DNA of 64,000 nucleotides from an uncultured Rhizobiaceae group bacterium (GTDB lineage Bacteria; Pseudomonadota; Alphaproteobacteria; Rhizobiales; Rhizobiaceae): positions 62,001 through 126,000 of the forward strand of contig CANMVS010000015.1 of assembly GCA_947501445.1 (NCBI GenBank). Reading direction: 5' to 3'. Shown here piece by piece: positions 46,438 through 62,585 of this stretch. The stretch's first letter is position 1. The number at the start of each line of letters is the position of its first letter. Position numbers and translations under genes: made by a program. The notes below the pieces were generated by a model, which was not told where the DNA came from, made no database searches, and saw only the letters and a list, made by a program, of their open reading frames with translations.

Positions 46438-48615
46438 TTGGCGAGTGCTGGTTTGCGGTCTAAATATCTTCCAATACTTGTGTTATTGGGCTGCGTAAGC
46501 GGTGTACTTATTGGTTTATTTCTGCCGCAACTGGCAAATTTCATTTCCCCGGTTGGACACATTTATATCCGTTTGATGGAAGTTGTGGTTCTTCCATACA
46601 TTATCTCGTCTCTGGTTTTGGGGCTGGGGCAACTTGCACCGCAAACGGCCTTAAAACTTTTCCGCAAAAGTTGGGTGGTCTATGTTGCTCTTTGGACGAT
46701 GTCGCTTGCGGTCATTATCATTGTCGCCTCCACGGTTCCGCTTGTAAAACAGGCTGCGGTGATCAATTTTGCTGCAACGCTGGGTGCGGTGCCAAGCGAC
46801 GCGCCGTCGCTGATCGAACTGTTGATACCGAATAATTTTTTCCAGGCACTCACCAATAATTATGTGCCATCGATTGTTCTCATCGGCATCATCTACGGTG
46901 TTGCGGTGCAACATATCGAAAAGCGCGGTGAATTTCTTAATATTCTGTCAGTGATCCGCGGTGCCAGTGTTCGTATCTGGGGATGGGTTGTCTATCTGGC
47001 GCCGATTGGCGTTTGCTCGCTTTTTGCCGACACGCTCAGCTCAATGGACCCGGACGGGTTGGCCGCGATGTCGCTGTATATGATCGTGGTTACGCTATCC
47101 GCGCTGCTCATCGGACTTTGGCTCCTGCCAATGTTGCTGACATCCTTTTTGCCGATGCGTTATTGGGAAATCATGACGGAACTGAAAGAAGCGTTTCTGA
47201 TTTCCATTGTTACATCCCTGTCTGTGGCGTCCTTGCCAATGATCCAGACCGCTGCTCAAAACATGGCAAAGAAATATTGCGGCAACGAGGATGAGAAGCA
47301 GCAAAAGGAGATCATCCAGACGACATTGTCGATCAGCTATCCGCTGGCACAGGTTGGCAACTTTTTCATAATGGCGTTTTTATTTTACGCATCATTTTAC
47401 TTTTTCGTACCTTTCAGTGTTTCACAGTTGTTCGAACTGCCCTTTGTCACGCTGCTCTCGGGTGTGGGTTCTCCGTCATCTTCAATTGGCGCAGTCGCCT
47501 TTATGGCCGAGTGGTTGAATATGCCCAGTGAAACGACGAATCTCTATGTCGAGACAATGTCGCTGACCCGTTATGCCCAGGTCCTTGCCTCCGTCGCAGC
47601 CTTTGCATTCGTCACCATCCTGGTGACATTTATTTTCTATGGGCGTGTAAGGCTTGATCTGAAACGTCTGATCATGACCTTGGCTGTGACCGCAGTATGT
47701 CTTTCGGGCATCTGGTCTGTCGGTCGCTGGGGCGGCACACATATCCAGTTGCATTCCCTGAACAATTACCTGGCTATGGGATTGCCGGACGAACTTCAGG
47801 CATTCAGCGACGCCAATCTGGTTTCCAATCTGGCGTCCAAACCAGATGAAGAAATCAGTACATCGCAGACCAATCGTGCTGTCGATAAGACAGATGGCAC
47901 CCTCGACAGGATTCAATCCAGCGGCGTGCTTCGTATTGGTATCAATCCAAACGTGATGCCCTTTTCCTACATTAACACGGCCAAAGAGCTGGTGGGCTAT
48001 GATGTGGAGATGATGTATCGTTTTGCCGATAGCATGAATGTTGAATTGAAATTCGTTGCCTATACCTGGCAGGAATTGGTGGATGATCTTGAAAAGTCCA
48101 AATTCGATATTGCCGTCGGCGGCATTTACATAACCGATGATCGTTTGAGAAAACTGACAGTCAGCGACCCCTATTATGAAAACCCATTGGCTTTGATCGT
48201 CAAAACATCGGATGTGGGGAAATTCTCGTCACGTGAACTGATTGACGGCACCGAGGGCGTCAATATCGCTGTCTTCAATGATCCGGTCCTGTTGCCCCAG
48301 GCAAAGCGCAGTTTTCCAAATGCAACTGTTACGGTTCTGGATAATTATGACAAACTGGAATCGCAAACGCATATTGATGCTGCATTGTGGACGCTTGAAC
48401 AGGCGCGCGCCTGGGCCATTTCACACGAGGGATATTCCGCTGTTGTACCCAAAAATACAGCAAGCCGGTTTCTCTTCGGTTATCTCATGGCACCCAATTC
48501 ACCTGGACTTTCCGACTATCTGAATTACTGGATGGGCATCAACGTGCAAGGGGGTGTTCAGGCCGACATGGCCAAGCGCTGGATTGACCCCGCAGCAACA
48601 GATGCAAGACGGTAG
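46438..48615 (+). CDS. Dicarboxylate/amino acid:cation symporter (SDF) fused to a C-terminal family-3 solute-binding protein domain
   Basis: N-terminal DAACS transporter (LMEVVVLPYIISSLVLGLGQL, GVGSPSSSIGAVAFM) then RIQSSGVLRIGINPNVMPFSYINTAKELVGYDVEMMYRFADSMNVEL...DIAVGGIYITDDRLRKLTVSDPYY; TTG start. Confidence 0.88.
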   Translation: MASAGLRSKYLPILVLLGCVSGVLIGLFLPQLANFISPVGHIYIRLMEVVVLPYIISSLVLGLGQLAPQTALKLFRKSWVVYVALWTMSLAVIIIVASTVPLVKQAAVINFAATLGAVPSDAPSLIELLIPNNFFQALTNNYVPSIVLIGIIYGVAVQHIEKRGEFLNILSVIRGASVRIWGWVVYLAPIGVCSLFADTLSSMDPDGLAAMSLYMIVVTLSALLIGLWLLPMLLTSFLPMRYWEIMTELKEAFLISIVTSLSVASLPMIQTAAQNMAKKYCGNEDEKQQKEIIQTTLSISYPLAQVGNFFIMAFLFYASFYFFVPFSVSQLFELPFVTLLSGVGSPSSSIGAVAFMAEWLNMPSETTNLYVETMSLTRYAQVLASVAAFAFVTILVTFIFYGRVRLDLKRLIMTLAVTAVCLSGIWSVGRWGGTHIQLHSLNNYLAMGLPDELQAFSDANLVSNLASKPDEEISTSQTNRAVDKTDGTLDRIQSSGVLRIGINPNVMPFSYINTAKELVGYDVEMMYRFADSMNVELKFVAYTWQELVDDLEKSKFDIAVGGIYITDDRLRKLTVSDPYYENPLALIVKTSDVGKFSSRELIDGTEGVNIAVFNDPVLLPQAKRSFPNATVTVLDNYDKLESQTHIDAALWTLEQARAWAISHEGYSAVVPKNTASRFLFGYLMAPNSPGLSDYLNYWMGINVQGGVQADMAKRWIDPAATDARR

Positions 48616-53482: not shown

Positions 53483-53941
53483 TCAGGGCAATTCCATCTG
53501 ATCTGAAGACATTCCCATCAGAGGAATTTTCAGGAAATTATCCTCGTCAAAATTGATGGAGACTGTGTTCAATACATTGCGCAGCGAGTGGAGCATGTCA
53601 TCGCCACGATCTGATGCATGAACCAGGCAAATTGGTTTGGCAATGAGTTCTTCGCGTGGAACCAGCCAGTCAATGGCGTTTTTCAGACCGCCAGGCAATG
53701 CGCGGGCATATTCGGGACTGGAGAATATCAGGCCATCGGCATCGCCAACCTGCTGGGCCAGCGAACGGACGGATCGCGGTGTTTCATCCCCATTCACATC
53801 CGGTGAAAAGACGGGCAGTTGGGTAAGTCCGTCATACAGGTTGATCTGATGGTCTGAACCCGACGCCCTGGCAATCGCTGTCAGCAAAGCGCTATTGGTG
53901 GAGCCGATGCGCACACTACCTGAAATCGCCAGAATTTTCAT
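53483..53941 (-). CDS. NADPH-dependent FMN reductase
   Basis: MKILAISGSVRIGSTNSALL, FSSPEYARALPGGLKNAIDWL. Confidence 0.9.
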   Translation of the reverse strand: MKILAISGSVRIGSTNSALLTAIARASGSDHQINLYDGLTQLPVFSPDVNGDETPRSVRSLAQQVGDADGLIFSSPEYARALPGGLKNAIDWLVPREELIAKPICLVHASDRGDDMLHSLRNVLNTVSINFDEDNFLKIPLMGMSSDQMELP

Positions 53942-54162
53942 TTGCTTGCTGTCCCATGCCAGATTGCCGGTTGGTGTTGGCGGAGATGGAATCACCTCTG
54001 TTTGGGGTGCAATATGGGCAATTTAGCCGTTGCTGTGAAACTGCATTGTAATGGTTTGCTTGCATGAGTTGTTGATCATCGAACGATGGTGATTGATGGA
54101 ACCAAATGAAGATGGGTTGTTCTGCTTATTGATTTTCAGCCAATTCTGCCCATCTTGGGAGT

Positions 54163-55728
54163 ATGAATATTCACAGCGAAACATCCGGTGCCTATCGACT
54201 TGAAGTATTTCCATTGCGCGGTGAAGTTGTTGCGCGCAATGGAAACAGTATATTGGCGGCAAGCCGGTCTGCAAAATTCATGCGGGAAACGCGCCTGGCG
54301 CCGACGATTTATTTCCCGCTTGACGATGTTGCTGCAACACTGCAGGCGAGTGAAAAGAGAACCTTTTGTCCATTCAAAGGAACCGCAACCTATTGGGATG
54401 TCATTGTTGATGACCAGATCATTGCCGATGGCGCATGGACCTATCGAAGCGCACTGCCGGAATCGCGTGAAATAGAGGGTTATGTCAGCTTCACCCAAGA
54501 GGCACTCACCCATCTGGATATGGGCGGGAATGCCGTATCCCCGGGTCAGGAGGGCAATATCTCCGGCCCCATTGTTGACTGGATCATGCGAGAGGCATGG
54601 CTTTGCACGTCTCCGGAAGAACTGACAGCGGCTATTGCGCGCAAATTTGTCGAAGACGGTATCGCTGTTTCCAGAATGAGCGCTCTGATCTGGTCTCTGC
54701 ATCCCATGATTGCCGGTAAAAACTATGTCTGGACCAGTGAGGAAAACAAGGTTGAAACCTATACGCCATCGCATGATCTGTTGACGAACCCGGTTTACGT
54801 CAACAGCCCCTTGCGTCATGTGACCAACGGGCTTGGCGGCGTCCGCCAGAATCTTCAGAACGATAAGGTGGAATTCAATTTTCCCATTTTGGAAGAGCTG
54901 AAAGCAAAGGGCGCCACCGACTATGTGGCCATGCCACTACAGTTCTCAAATGGTCAGATAAATGTTGTCACATTGACCAGCAATCACCCCAATGGTTTTA
55001 CGACAGCCAATCTTGGGCTGATCTTTGAATGCCTGTCGGTGATCAGCAGACTGTATGAAGTCTTTGCCTTGCGTGACAATGCGACGGCCCTTTTGGAAAC
55101 CTATCTGGGCAGGCGCACTGGCGAGCGGGTTCTTGGTGGTGAAATTCGTCGCGGCGACGGGGATCAGATTGATGCGGCAATCCTTTTTTGCGATTTGAGA
55201 GGATCATCGCGACTTGAGGAGCAATTGGGCCGGGAGGCCTATCTGGTTTTGTTGAACCGGTTTTTTGAGACGACAACCGCGATTATCAATGAGCACGGTG
55301 GTGAGGTTCTCAAATTTATCGGTGATGCTGTTCTGGCCATCTTCCCGATGAGTGAGGACAGGGATGTTGCCTGTGGGCAGGCGCTCGCTTCGGCACTGGA
55401 AATTGATCGCCGCCTGCATGATAGCGAAAGTGAAAAAGCCGGCGGAAATATGGATTGTGCGATTGGGCTTGCGTTTGGCAATGTTACCTATGGCAATGTC
55501 GGTTCAAAAGAGCGATTGGATTTCACCGTTATCGGATCCGCGGCAAATGTCGCAGCGCGCCTCGGCGATCTGGGCAAAACTCTGGGGCATGCAATTGTTG
55601 CGACAAAAGAGATTGCCCAGAGCAATCAGGACGTCATGCAATCGCTTGGGGCTCATGAATTGCACAATGTTTCGGTAGCGGTTGAAGCCTGGGCACCACG
55701 CGTACCGGTGCCAACTTCTGTCCAATAG
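54163..55728 (+). CDS. Class III adenylate/guanylate cyclase with N-terminal DUF427-like domain
   Basis: N-term LAPTIYFPLDDVAATLQASEKRTFCPFKGTATYWDVIVDDQIIADGAWTYRSALPESREIEGYVSF (DUF427-like); C-term AAILFCDLRGSSRLEEQLG...GGEVLKFIGDAVLAIFP cyclase. Confidence 0.88.
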   Translation: MNIHSETSGAYRLEVFPLRGEVVARNGNSILAASRSAKFMRETRLAPTIYFPLDDVAATLQASEKRTFCPFKGTATYWDVIVDDQIIADGAWTYRSALPESREIEGYVSFTQEALTHLDMGGNAVSPGQEGNISGPIVDWIMREAWLCTSPEELTAAIARKFVEDGIAVSRMSALIWSLHPMIAGKNYVWTSEENKVETYTPSHDLLTNPVYVNSPLRHVTNGLGGVRQNLQNDKVEFNFPILEELKAKGATDYVAMPLQFSNGQINVVTLTSNHPNGFTTANLGLIFECLSVISRLYEVFALRDNATALLETYLGRRTGERVLGGEIRRGDGDQIDAAILFCDLRGSSRLEEQLGREAYLVLLNRFFETTTAIINEHGGEVLKFIGDAVLAIFPMSEDRDVACGQALASALEIDRRLHDSESEKAGGNMDCAIGLAFGNVTYGNVGSKERLDFTVIGSAANVAARLGDLGKTLGHAIVATKEIAQSNQDVMQSLGAHELHNVSVAVEAWAPRVPVPTSVQ

Positions 55729-56885: not shown

Positions 56886-57895
56886 TGGTGCAGGACAGGG
56901 TAACCTCGATTGAGGTGGCAAGGCGGGCAGGGGTCAGCCAGTCGGCTGTGTCACGGGTTTTTACGCCCGGTGCCAGCGCATCACCAAAAATGGCGGCGAA
57001 AATTCGCAAGGTGGCCGATGCCCTCGGCTACCGCCCCAATGTTCTCGCCCGTTCACTGATTACCGGCAAAAGCCGGATCATTGGTGTTGTCGTTGCTTAT
57101 CTGGAAAACCAGTTTTATCCCGATGCGCTGGAAAAACTGTCCATGGCGCTGCAGGCACGTGGTTATCACGTGCTGGTGTTCATGGCCGCACAGGATGCTG
57201 GCAATATTGACCAGGTGCTGGATGAGATCGTCGATTATCAGGTGGATGCACTGGTGATGGCGTCCGTTGCAATGTCCTCAACACTGGTCGAACGCTGCGA
57301 TGCCGCCGGTATTCCCGTTCTGCTGTTCAACCGCCGTCAGGATGATGCACGATTTGCTTCGGTTACCTCCGACAATGTCGCCGGTGGCCGAAAACTGGCC
57401 GAGTTCCTGATTAAGGGTGGGCATCGCAAAATTGCCCATATCGCCGGATGGGAAGGTGCGTCCACACAGCGGGACCGCGAGCAGGGATTTCGCGAGGGGC
57501 TTGCCGCCGGTGGTATGAAGCTGTTCAGCCGGGCGGTTGGAAATTTTGACTTTGAGCAGTCAAAGGATGCGGCGCGTGAATTGTTCAACAGCTTTGATCC
57601 ACCTGATGCTGTGTTTGTTGCCAATGATCATATGGCTTTTGCCGTTATGGAAACATTGCGCAGCGAGCTTGGTTTGCGCATTCCGCAGGATGTATCGGTG
57701 GTGGGATATGATGATGTACCAATTGCCGCCTGGCCCAGTTTCGACCTGACAACGGTTCGCCAACCTTCTGATCTGATGGTGGAGAAAACGGTTGTTTCCT
57801 TGCTGGATAGTATCGACAACCCTTTGTCTGAGCCAAGGCAGGTGGCAATTGATGGCCCGCTGATCATTCGTGGATCCGCACGAAAACCTCAATGA
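56882..57895 (+). CDS. LacI-family transcriptional regulator
   Basis: HTH SIEVARRAGVSQSAVSRVFTPGASASPKMAAKIRKVADALGYRPNVLARSL. Confidence 0.93.
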   Translation: MMVQDRVTSIEVARRAGVSQSAVSRVFTPGASASPKMAAKIRKVADALGYRPNVLARSLITGKSRIIGVVVAYLENQFYPDALEKLSMALQARGYHVLVFMAAQDAGNIDQVLDEIVDYQVDALVMASVAMSSTLVERCDAAGIPVLLFNRRQDDARFASVTSDNVAGGRKLAEFLIKGGHRKIAHIAGWEGASTQRDREQGFREGLAAGGMKLFSRAVGNFDFEQSKDAARELFNSFDPPDAVFVANDHMAFAVMETLRSELGLRIPQDVSVVGYDDVPIAAWPSFDLTTVRQPSDLMVEKTVVSLLDSIDNPLSEPRQVAIDGPLIIRGSARKPQ

Positions 57896-58334
57896 ATGTG
57901 AGAACTATGCTCAATTTTTCCGCCAATTTATCGATGCTATTTTGCGAGCATCCGTTTCTGCAACGGTTTGAAGCCGCCAGCGCTGCGGGATTTCAAGCGG
58001 TGGAGTTTACATTTCCCTATGAATTTTCACCACGGGTGGTGGCTCGGGCGGCCAAGGTGCACAATCTGGCCATCAGCGTTTTCAATTCGATATCTATCAC
58101 CACCAGATTTATCGCGGCGACATCGTGCGCAGTCTGGAACATTATTGGCCGCACATCGGTCATATTCAGATAGCCGGTGTGCCCGACCGTCATGAACCTG
58201 ATAAGGGCGAATAGAATTACCGTCCTATTTTCGATTGTCTCGAGCGCCTTGGCTATGACGGCTGGATTGGCTGTGAATATTACCCCAAGGGCAAAACAAT
58301 TGACGGTCTGGGCTGGATGACAACATTGGCCTGA
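57892..58334 (+). pseudogene. hyi: Hydroxypyruvate isomerase (hyi) remnant: internal deletion, frameshift and in-frame stop
   Basis: N-term [40 protein letters not shown]; in another frame [82 protein letters not shown]. Confidence 0.88.
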
Positions 58335-59907: not shown

Positions 59908-60897
59908 ATGACAAGCCAACCGCTCATTGATTGCCTGCAATATGCCAATTGGTCTGAAACCATCTTTCGGCAAATGCGTGAAGGCGGTGTTCATGCCGTG
60001 CATGCCACCATCGCCTATCATGAGAATTTCCGTGAAACCGTGCTCAACATTGAAGCATGGAACCGTCATTTCGAACAATTTCCCGAACTGATTTTTCATG
60101 GTCGCACCGGCGATGATGTCAGGCGGGCGGCACAGGAGGGCCGTACGGCGATATTCTTTGGATTTCAAAATCCATCGCCCATTGAAGATGACATTGGGCT
60201 CGTGGAGATTTGCCACACGCTTGGTGCGCGTTTCATGCAGTTGACCTACAACAACCAGTCGCTGCTGGCGACGGGCTGTTACGAACAGGATGATACGGGT
60301 ATTACGCGATTTGGGCGTCAGGTCATCGCGGAAATGAACCGCGTTGGCATGGTCATCGACATGAGCCATTCGGCTGAACGCTCGACACTTGAAGCCATTG
60401 AAATATCCGAGCGCCCCATCGCCATCACCCATGCCAATCCACATTGGTGGCACCCGGCACTGCGCAATAAATCCGATATTGTATTGCGCGAACTTACCGC
60501 ATCCGGTGGCATGCTCGGGTTTTCGTTTTATCCCCATCACCTGAACAACGGATCCAACTGCACGATCCGCGATTTTTGTGGGATGATCGCGCAAAGTGCG
60601 GAGCGTTATGGGGTTGGCAGTATCGGTCTTGGATCCGATTTGTGTCAGGATCACCCTGATAGCGTTGTCACCTGGATGCGAAACGGGCGCTGGACAAAAC
60701 AGATGGATTTCGGTGAAGGCTCAGCCAGCGCACCAGGGTTTCCGGAACCGGCAGCCTGGTTCAAGGACAACCGAGATTTTTCCAACATCGCACAGGGTCT
60801 GAAAACAGTCGGCTTTGCTAATGATGACGTGGCTGCCATTATGGGTGGCAACTGGCTTCGCTTTTACGATAACTCATTTGGACCGCCTCAGTCATGA
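59908..60897 (+). CDS. Membrane (renal-type) dipeptidase family M19
   Basis: FFGFQNPSPIEDDIGLVEICHTLGARFMQLTYNNQ, VIDMSHSAERSTLEAIEIS, GLGSDLCQDH. Confidence 0.85.
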   Translation: MTSQPLIDCLQYANWSETIFRQMREGGVHAVHATIAYHENFRETVLNIEAWNRHFEQFPELIFHGRTGDDVRRAAQEGRTAIFFGFQNPSPIEDDIGLVEICHTLGARFMQLTYNNQSLLATGCYEQDDTGITRFGRQVIAEMNRVGMVIDMSHSAERSTLEAIEISERPIAITHANPHWWHPALRNKSDIVLRELTASGGMLGFSFYPHHLNNGSNCTIRDFCGMIAQSAERYGVGSIGLGSDLCQDHPDSVVTWMRNGRWTKQMDFGEGSASAPGFPEPAAWFKDNRDFSNIAQGLKTVGFANDDVAAIMGGNWLRFYDNSFGPPQS

Positions 60898-62585
60898 ACG
60901 ATCATCATGCGATTGAAAATGAAGTTCCTCAAATGCCCCTTCGGGAACCTGATATGGTTATGCGGTTGTCGAGACTTGGCGCGTTTTATCCAACGCGCCT
61001 GAGCTTCATGCGATCGCTGATACGGCAGCTTTCAACGGAAAAAGTTGATGTGCGAAGGCCCGTTTGGGAAATCGACGAGGCAGGTTACGGCCGGGCAGTC
61101 TATGCCATCACGCTTGGTGGATATGTCTACAGCCTTGTTGCATTTTCTACGCGGTTGTCGCCGGATCAACGTACTGACCGGGTCATCGCTGAAGCATGGG
61201 ATACAAGCTACGCATTATTCGATGGTGTGCCGACAGTTGATGATCTGGATCGACTTGAAGCCAATGCACCCAGACAGGAGGCCGGGCGCTTTTCTGCTAC
61301 CGAGCTGGTTATCAGCCGCGCCAACAAGTCGGTGCGGTTTTTTGATCATGTTGTGGATCGGCTAGCTCATGGCCTTCAGCCTGACAGGTCGCTGGTTGAT
61401 TCCGTTGGATATCTGATGCGCACAACTGCGGTGTATGGCAATGGAAAATTCGGTATTGCCGACCGTGCACGCATAGAGGGTCGGTCTCAGCTTTCCGGGT
61501 CATTTCAAGCGGAGATGCTGACGGTATGGTTGATCAGGGGTTTTTCTGTTGATCTTGTTGAACATATTGCCCGATGCCGCTCACCGGAAAAATCCGTGCT
61601 GCTTGATCGCGATTTGAAACGACATCTGGGCATAGGCAATTCCACCGGCCTCGGCATGGCGCCCTTTCTGGTTACACACCCGATTTTGCTCAACAACTGG
61701 ATCATATCGCGCGAAACGGCGCTGGCGCGTGTGCGTGCCATCAAACAGGCCGCACCTGATCGCATTGAGCGGGTCCTGGCGCTGATGCTCAGAGCAAGAA
61801 AGCATCTCCTGCAGTGGTCTGTGCCTGATGAAAGGCAAATGCAGCGCGTGACGATATTGCGCAACGAATGGGACGCGCTCATCGGTGTGGTGACAAGCCA
61901 ATGGCTTGAGGCGGATTATCCATGGGAGCGGATGATGGCCCTATCGCAGGAGCGCTCGCAGGAATGCCAGGAATTGATGGTATCGCTGCTGCTGGAATTC
62001 AACGGTGACCTTGTTGATGGGCTGACCGATTGCATGGTTGCAACCAATGAACCGCGTCTTGTCGCCTCAATGACAGTCGCTGCTCTGCGCGCTTTATGCG
62101 CCCGGCATTTCGATTGGACGCTGAAGATTGACTTTACTGACCGCAGGCAAACAAACCAGTTCTGGTATGTATCTGAGGAAAAATTGGAACCAAGGCTTGG
62201 CAATCGCTATGAGGAGCCAGGCTCCGAGCTGGAAATGCCACTGGATATAGCCCGGCAGGTCCAGGCGCTTGATCATGATCTTGCTGCATTTGATGACACA
62301 AAGAAAATTGCCGAGTTTTTAATCGCAAATCCCAAACATCGTGAGGCAGCGCGCCGGGTCCAATGTGCAGAGCTGCATCCCTATTCCGAAATTCGTGACA
62401 ATCTGCTGGCGGACGATAGTCTTCCGATCGACATGTTACGCTGTAAATTGTCTTTCTTTGGTGCTTCAAAATTTGACCCGAAATCTGATCGCTGGACGCG
62501 CATCACCCTGTATCAGGGCGCGCCTCTTCTGGATGAGATAACCGGTGAGAATGCTGATGACTGGTGGCTGCCGGTGCTGACATGA
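60894..62585 (+). CDS. Uncharacterised 563-aa protein
   Basis: Intact ORF with 4-bp overlaps on both sides within the operon; no family recognised. Confidence 0.75.
   Translation: MNDHHAIENEVPQMPLREPDMVMRLSRLGAFYPTRLSFMRSLIRQLSTEKVDVRRPVWEIDEAGYGRAVYAITLGGYVYSLVAFSTRLSPDQRTDRVIAEAWDTSYALFDGVPTVDDLDRLEANAPRQEAGRFSATELVISRANKSVRFFDHVVDRLAHGLQPDRSLVDSVGYLMRTTAVYGNGKFGIADRARIEGRSQLSGSFQAEMLTVWLIRGFSVDLVEHIARCRSPEKSVLLDRDLKRHLGIGNSTGLGMAPFLVTHPILLNNWIISRETALARVRAIKQAAPDRIERVLALMLRARKHLLQWSVPDERQMQRVTILRNEWDALIGVVTSQWLEADYPWERMMALSQERSQECQELMVSLLLEFNGDLVDGLTDCMVATNEPRLVASMTVAALRALCARHFDWTLKIDFTDRRQTNQFWYVSEEKLEPRLGNRYEEPGSELEMPLDIARQVQALDHDLAAFDDTKKIAEFLIANPKHREAARRVQCAELHPYSEIRDNLLADDSLPIDMLRCKLSFFGASKFDPKSDRWTRITLYQGAPLLDEITGENADDWWLPVLT

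Follow-up and report, generated by a model that had tools for sequence, protein, structure and literature searches.

What does DUF427 contribute when it stands at the head of a signalling enzyme? This question is raised by one gene in the window, by which we mean the whole 64,000-nucleotide stretch of DNA analyzed. The original prediction, made from the sequence alone, had read the gene as an N-terminal DUF427 followed by a C-terminal class III adenylate cyclase, and had proposed that DUF427 senses a ligand. DUF427 has a solved structure but, in the literature searched, no known function, and here it is attached to an enzyme whose output is easily measured; cAMP could be used as a handle on what the domain senses or does. 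Varied input domains are a familiar feature of class III cyclases. If DUF427 does act as a sensor in this protein, this would be the first function for DUF427 and a new class of input for class III cyclases.

Domain architecture of the fusion protein

The ORF listing of the window contains, at 54163-55728 (+), a frame of 521 amino acids with an ATG start and no internal stop. PGAP labels the fusion 'DUF427 domain-containing protein'. Every motif quoted in the original prediction is present in the translation. From N- to C-terminus, the protein consists of DUF427, a predicted divergent GAF domain, and a class III cyclase, and we delimited its parts as follows.

54163..55728, + strand: complete gene, DUF427-GAF-class III adenylate cyclase, including the stop codon (ORF; homologues L024-L029 full-length, 57-69% identity)
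54196..54507, + strand: DUF427 (beta-tent), aa 12-115; core E42, Y50, C69-P70-x-K72-G73, W92 and Y94 (PF04248; 3djm; conservation against standalone DUF427)
54508..54558, + strand: flexible interdomain linker, aa 116-132 (variable in the alignment; pLDDT <50 at 126-135)
54559..55002, + strand: predicted divergent GAF domain, aa 133-280 (GAF_2 in 17 of 60 homologues; pLDDT 93 model against PDB GAF structures)
55003..55167, + strand: signalling helix and conserved pre-catalytic linker, aa 281-335, TYLGRRTGERVLGGEIRRGDGD (modelled helices; near-invariant columns)
55168..55698, + strand: class III nucleotidyl cyclase catalytic domain, aa 336-512 (PF00211; bPAC alignment; residues across 67 homologues)

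A scan of species genomes added six homologues that match over the full length; they come from Hyphomicrobiales/Rhizobiaceae assemblies, Hoeflea poritis, Nitratireductor sp. XY-223, and a Rhodobacteraceae bacterium. These six loci, in independent assemblies, encode the same three-part protein at the full-length identity given above, which rules out an ORF that arose by chance or as a chimera. The fusion proteins make up a genuine and conserved family. Because the highest Kyte-Doolittle value over 19 residues was 1.46, reached across part of the signalling helix, and no strongly hydrophobic stretch was present, the protein is probably soluble. A full-length structure model built from seven sequences (mean pLDDT 68.9) had low interdomain confidence (pTM 0.41), so that no coupling geometry is readable from it and it was used for single domains only.

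Both terminal domains of the original prediction proved right. A profile search, chosen beforehand as the check on the DUF427 assignment, matched PF04248 to residues 24-112 well above the cut-off (E=1.7e-25, 89.1 bits against 22.1). The corresponding part of the predicted structure has the beta-tent fold and superimposes on the solved DUF427 protein 3djm from Rhodobacter sphaeroides, also a PF04248 member, with a TM score of 0.90 and an rmsd of 1.4-2.1; 3djm likewise shares the invariant core residues. DUF427 is common in bacteria and fungi; its members are mostly standalone proteins, and 3djm carries no cyclase. All core residues (E, Y, CPxKG, W, and Y) are present in the window protein. E42, Y50, C69, P70, K72, G73, and Y94 were found in 35/35 fused proteins and W92 in 32/35, and the same positions are conserved in standalone copies. 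The beta-tent fold groups DUF427 with MsrB, the cereblon CULT domain, MSS4, and others, and DUF427 has been termed a domain of unknown function that is systematically without a zinc site (PMC4287342). The literature searched, which has most subscription journals outside it, yielded no description of a DUF427-cyclase fusion or of a DUF427 function; the original prediction likewise knew of no assigned role for the domain, and would have counted an earlier characterization of the fusion against itself.

At the other end of the protein, PF00211 matched residues 338-474 (E=1.9e-11, 44.4 bits against a cut-off of 21.9), and the cyclase part of the predicted structure superimposed on CyaC (1wc1) with TM scores of 0.77-0.79. 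By sequence, the closest solved catalytic domain is that of bPAC (E=3.5e-25). Alignment with bPAC located all six class III catalytic residues: D344 and D388 for metal binding, K384 and T455 for the purine, and N462 and R466 for the transition state, roles that are established for class III cyclases. D344, D388, T455, and R466 were identical in all 34 fused proteins and N462 in 33 of them, and position 384 was K in 30 and R in four. A Lys/Thr purine pair in class III cyclases goes with ATP as the substrate, and the K384/T455 pair suggests the same here. With this pair and an intact set of catalytic residues, the window protein is probably active as a soluble adenylate cyclase.

Between the two lies the middle region of about 200 amino acids that had been noted before without its GAF domain being recognized; the region exists, and it resolves into a predicted divergent GAF and a linker helix. 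The window protein's own middle region gave no Pfam match. When 60 homologous middle regions were scanned singly, GAF_2 was detected in 17 (best E=6.1e-6), GAF in four (best E=3.6e-7), and GAF_3 weakly in three. A model built from the homologue alignment (pLDDT 93.4) matched many GAF domains in the PDB, with E-values from 2e-6 downward and TM scores of 0.5-0.65; among them were 3p01, 3k2n, the PDE5 and PDE6 GAFs, phytochrome GAFs, and 1ykd, the GAF identity of some entries being taken partly from their titles. On this modelled fold, we read aa ~133-280 as a divergent GAF domain. It is connected to the catalytic domain by a long helix (aa 281-315) and a conserved stretch; the model places helices at its residues 152-186 and 188-195, corresponding to aa 281-324, and several columns of aa 281-335 are near-invariant among the homologues.

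Distribution and origin of the fusion

The survey for DUF427-cyclase fusions called for by the original prediction yielded 34 intact fused proteins in Alphaproteobacteria. When DUF427 was surveyed in 298 genomes of the order and its long frames were retrieved, nine additional fused genes came to light, spread over eight genomes, and a full-length profile run on 386 genomes of the class gave fused matches in at least about 20 genomes and many GAF-cyclase-only matches beginning near profile position 130, these counts being lower bounds drawn from the best three candidates per genome. Of 399 genomes sampled from the phylum, none outside Alphaproteobacteria gave a fused match at E<=1e-110. Two Parasedimentitalea plasmids carry the fusion at 56-57% identity, annotated there as 'DUF427 domain-containing protein'. 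The fusion is an old one, and across many families it is conserved over its full length down to ~38% identity. One genome, G071, holds two divergent DUF427-GAF-cyclase paralogues, L031 and L043, on different branches of the family.

Long DUF427 ORFs were also considered as further fusion types and rejected, since the non-cyclase frames scanned with Pfam held only DUF427, which suggests open-frame extensions or DUF427 copies in tandem. L048, L049, and L050, in relatives of the window's genome, are single frames with two tandem DUF427 domains.

In a tree of the GAF and cyclase domains, the 34 intact fused proteins grouped together, with two label changes against ~22 in shuffles. Constraining all fused proteins to one clade was not rejected in a careful GAF-cyclase tree (AU p=0.50) or in a tree of DUF427 only (AU p=0.29). 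Since a single fused clade costs nothing in the first tree and is not rejected in the second, one fusion event is the simplest reading of these phylogenies, though not proven. One non-fused protein, L071, falls among or beside the fused ones; no DUF427 remnant was found upstream of its gene, and L071 may thus be a sister protein to which DUF427 was never joined. The related group that has the GAF-cyclase without DUF427 is larger than the fused group, and DUF427 was therefore probably added to an already working two-domain enzyme.

Members of this DUF427-less group (for example L004, L005, and L006, paralogues in the same genome) have the same GAF-helix-cyclase order and the same catalytic residues as the fusion, and L004, L005, and L006 share 31-35% identity with the window protein over aa 119-515. 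They differ in beginning at the GAF, with ~400 aa in all, whereas the fusion has DUF427 ahead of it. The GAF and the long helix would be a signalling core shared with this widespread alphaproteobacterial family; an ancestor would have acquired DUF427 at its N-terminus and kept it thereafter.

The putative role of DUF427

Selection on the three parts was compared between the Hoeflea and Nitratireductor orthologues. With dS near 1, which makes the ratios rough, dN/dS was ~0.042 for DUF427, ~0.042 for GAF, and ~0.057 for the cyclase. Purifying selection on DUF427 was as strong as on the enzyme part. DUF427 also diverged in step with the other domains (r=0.81 and 0.84, over pairs that are not independent). 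With its retained core and this constraint, DUF427 looks like a working part of the protein, the kind of work not being indicated by either.

A sensing role of DUF427 that feeds the cAMP output is, to us, the best explanation, with a probability of roughly 0.55. A ligand-sensing role is plausible and fits the clustering of the fused proteins, the purifying selection, and the intact core residues of both the catalytic domain and DUF427. The more specific proposal, that DUF427 is a previously unrecognized ligand-sensing domain gating cAMP synthesis together with the GAF, is tentative and falls somewhat short of even odds. The protein would be a class III adenylate cyclase, soluble and cytoplasmic, that receives input through two domains, and its catalytic domains would probably form a homodimer in which, by analogy with other class III enzymes, both chains contribute to each active site. 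DUF427 would most likely bind, or react with, a small molecule through the C69-P70-x-K72-G73/W92/Y94 site; the bound ligand would then move cAMP output up or down through the GAF and the helix, and cAMP would pass to Crp-type regulators.

Known systems offer partial precedents for such an arrangement. In the photoactivated adenylate cyclases bPAC and OaPAC, a soluble class III cyclase is driven by a sensor at its N-terminus, as proposed here, but that sensor is a BLUF light domain and not DUF427-GAF. In cyanobacterial GAF adenylate cyclases (1ykd), a GAF of matching fold precedes the class III cyclase; 1ykd has tandem canonical GAFs, whereas the fusion has a single divergent GAF preceded by DUF427.

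The GAF lies between DUF427 and the cyclase, and domains of this kind commonly sense small molecules. The signal may therefore enter through the GAF instead of DUF427, or through both; the GAF is an equally natural entry point. Conservation of the fused group could likewise reflect a stabilizing, targeting, or partner-binding DUF427. In a rival reading, the GAF would be the only sensor and DUF427 an accessory for stability, dimerization, or partner binding. We consider this unlikely but worth weighing, given that GAF domains are classic sensors of cyclic nucleotides and small molecules, that the fold matches include the GAF pair of a cyanobacterial cyclase (1ykd), and that GAF-cyclases with the same catalytic residues but without DUF427 are at least as widespread, which means that the enzyme can work without DUF427. 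In a pure scaffold, on the other hand, one would not expect the E/Y/CPxKG/W/Y signature of standalone copies to persist almost unchanged, or dN/dS to be the same as in the enzyme.

DUF427 might instead be an enzyme itself, with its conserved Cys and Lys, making or destroying a ligand that the GAF reads in a bifunctional protein. The near-invariance of CPxKG, W92, and Y94 in fused and standalone copies would suit catalysis, and MsrB is an example of an enzyme with the beta-tent fold (PMC4287342). Against it, no activity of any DUF427 protein is reported in the literature searched, no neighbouring gene is conserved with the fusion, and the computed EC association of DUF427 with deoxyhypusine monooxygenase is a weak statistical link only (PMC5307852); we regard an enzymatic DUF427 as improbable. 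A passenger status of the fusion, as a neutral joining of genes or an artefact of annotation with no effect, would fit the minority standing of fused proteins in the class (at least about 20 of the 386 genomes) but is very hard to reconcile with their full-length conservation across many families, selection on DUF427 equal to that on the enzyme, and recovery from independent assemblies.

Gene neighbourhood and genome context

The fusion gene stands alone at its locus. A flavin reductase gene lies upstream in divergent orientation (53483-53995, -), and an SDR gene begins ~360 bp downstream of the cyclase gene. A conserved operon partner was sought and rejected: across 34 loci, no gene keeps company with the fusion over its range, and no neighbour family occurs at more than four of them. 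A xylose-isomerase-like TIM-barrel gene directly follows the fusion gene, within ~60 bp, but only in three close relatives: Hoeflea, Nitratireductor, and L024.

The window's genome contains 22 matches to the cyclase domain and 11 cNMP-binding domains, and cAMP signalling is therefore likely established in it; the latter domains are possible receivers of the signal. Genomes like this one hold many class III cyclases, to whose range of inputs DUF427 would add.

Three further features of the window were recorded. A broken relative of the TIM-barrel gene that adjoins the cyclase in L027 and L028 lies 2.2 kb downstream of the fusion gene, at 57892-58319 (+); the match covers residues 1-60 and 174-253, with the middle lost and a stop present. 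At 60894-62585 (+), a 563-aa ORF without a Pfam match overlaps the end of an M19 dipeptidase gene by four bases. On the other side of the fusion gene, a 725-aa frame at 46438-48615 (+) joins a sodium:dicarboxylate symporter (SDF) to a C-terminal family 3 solute-binding domain.
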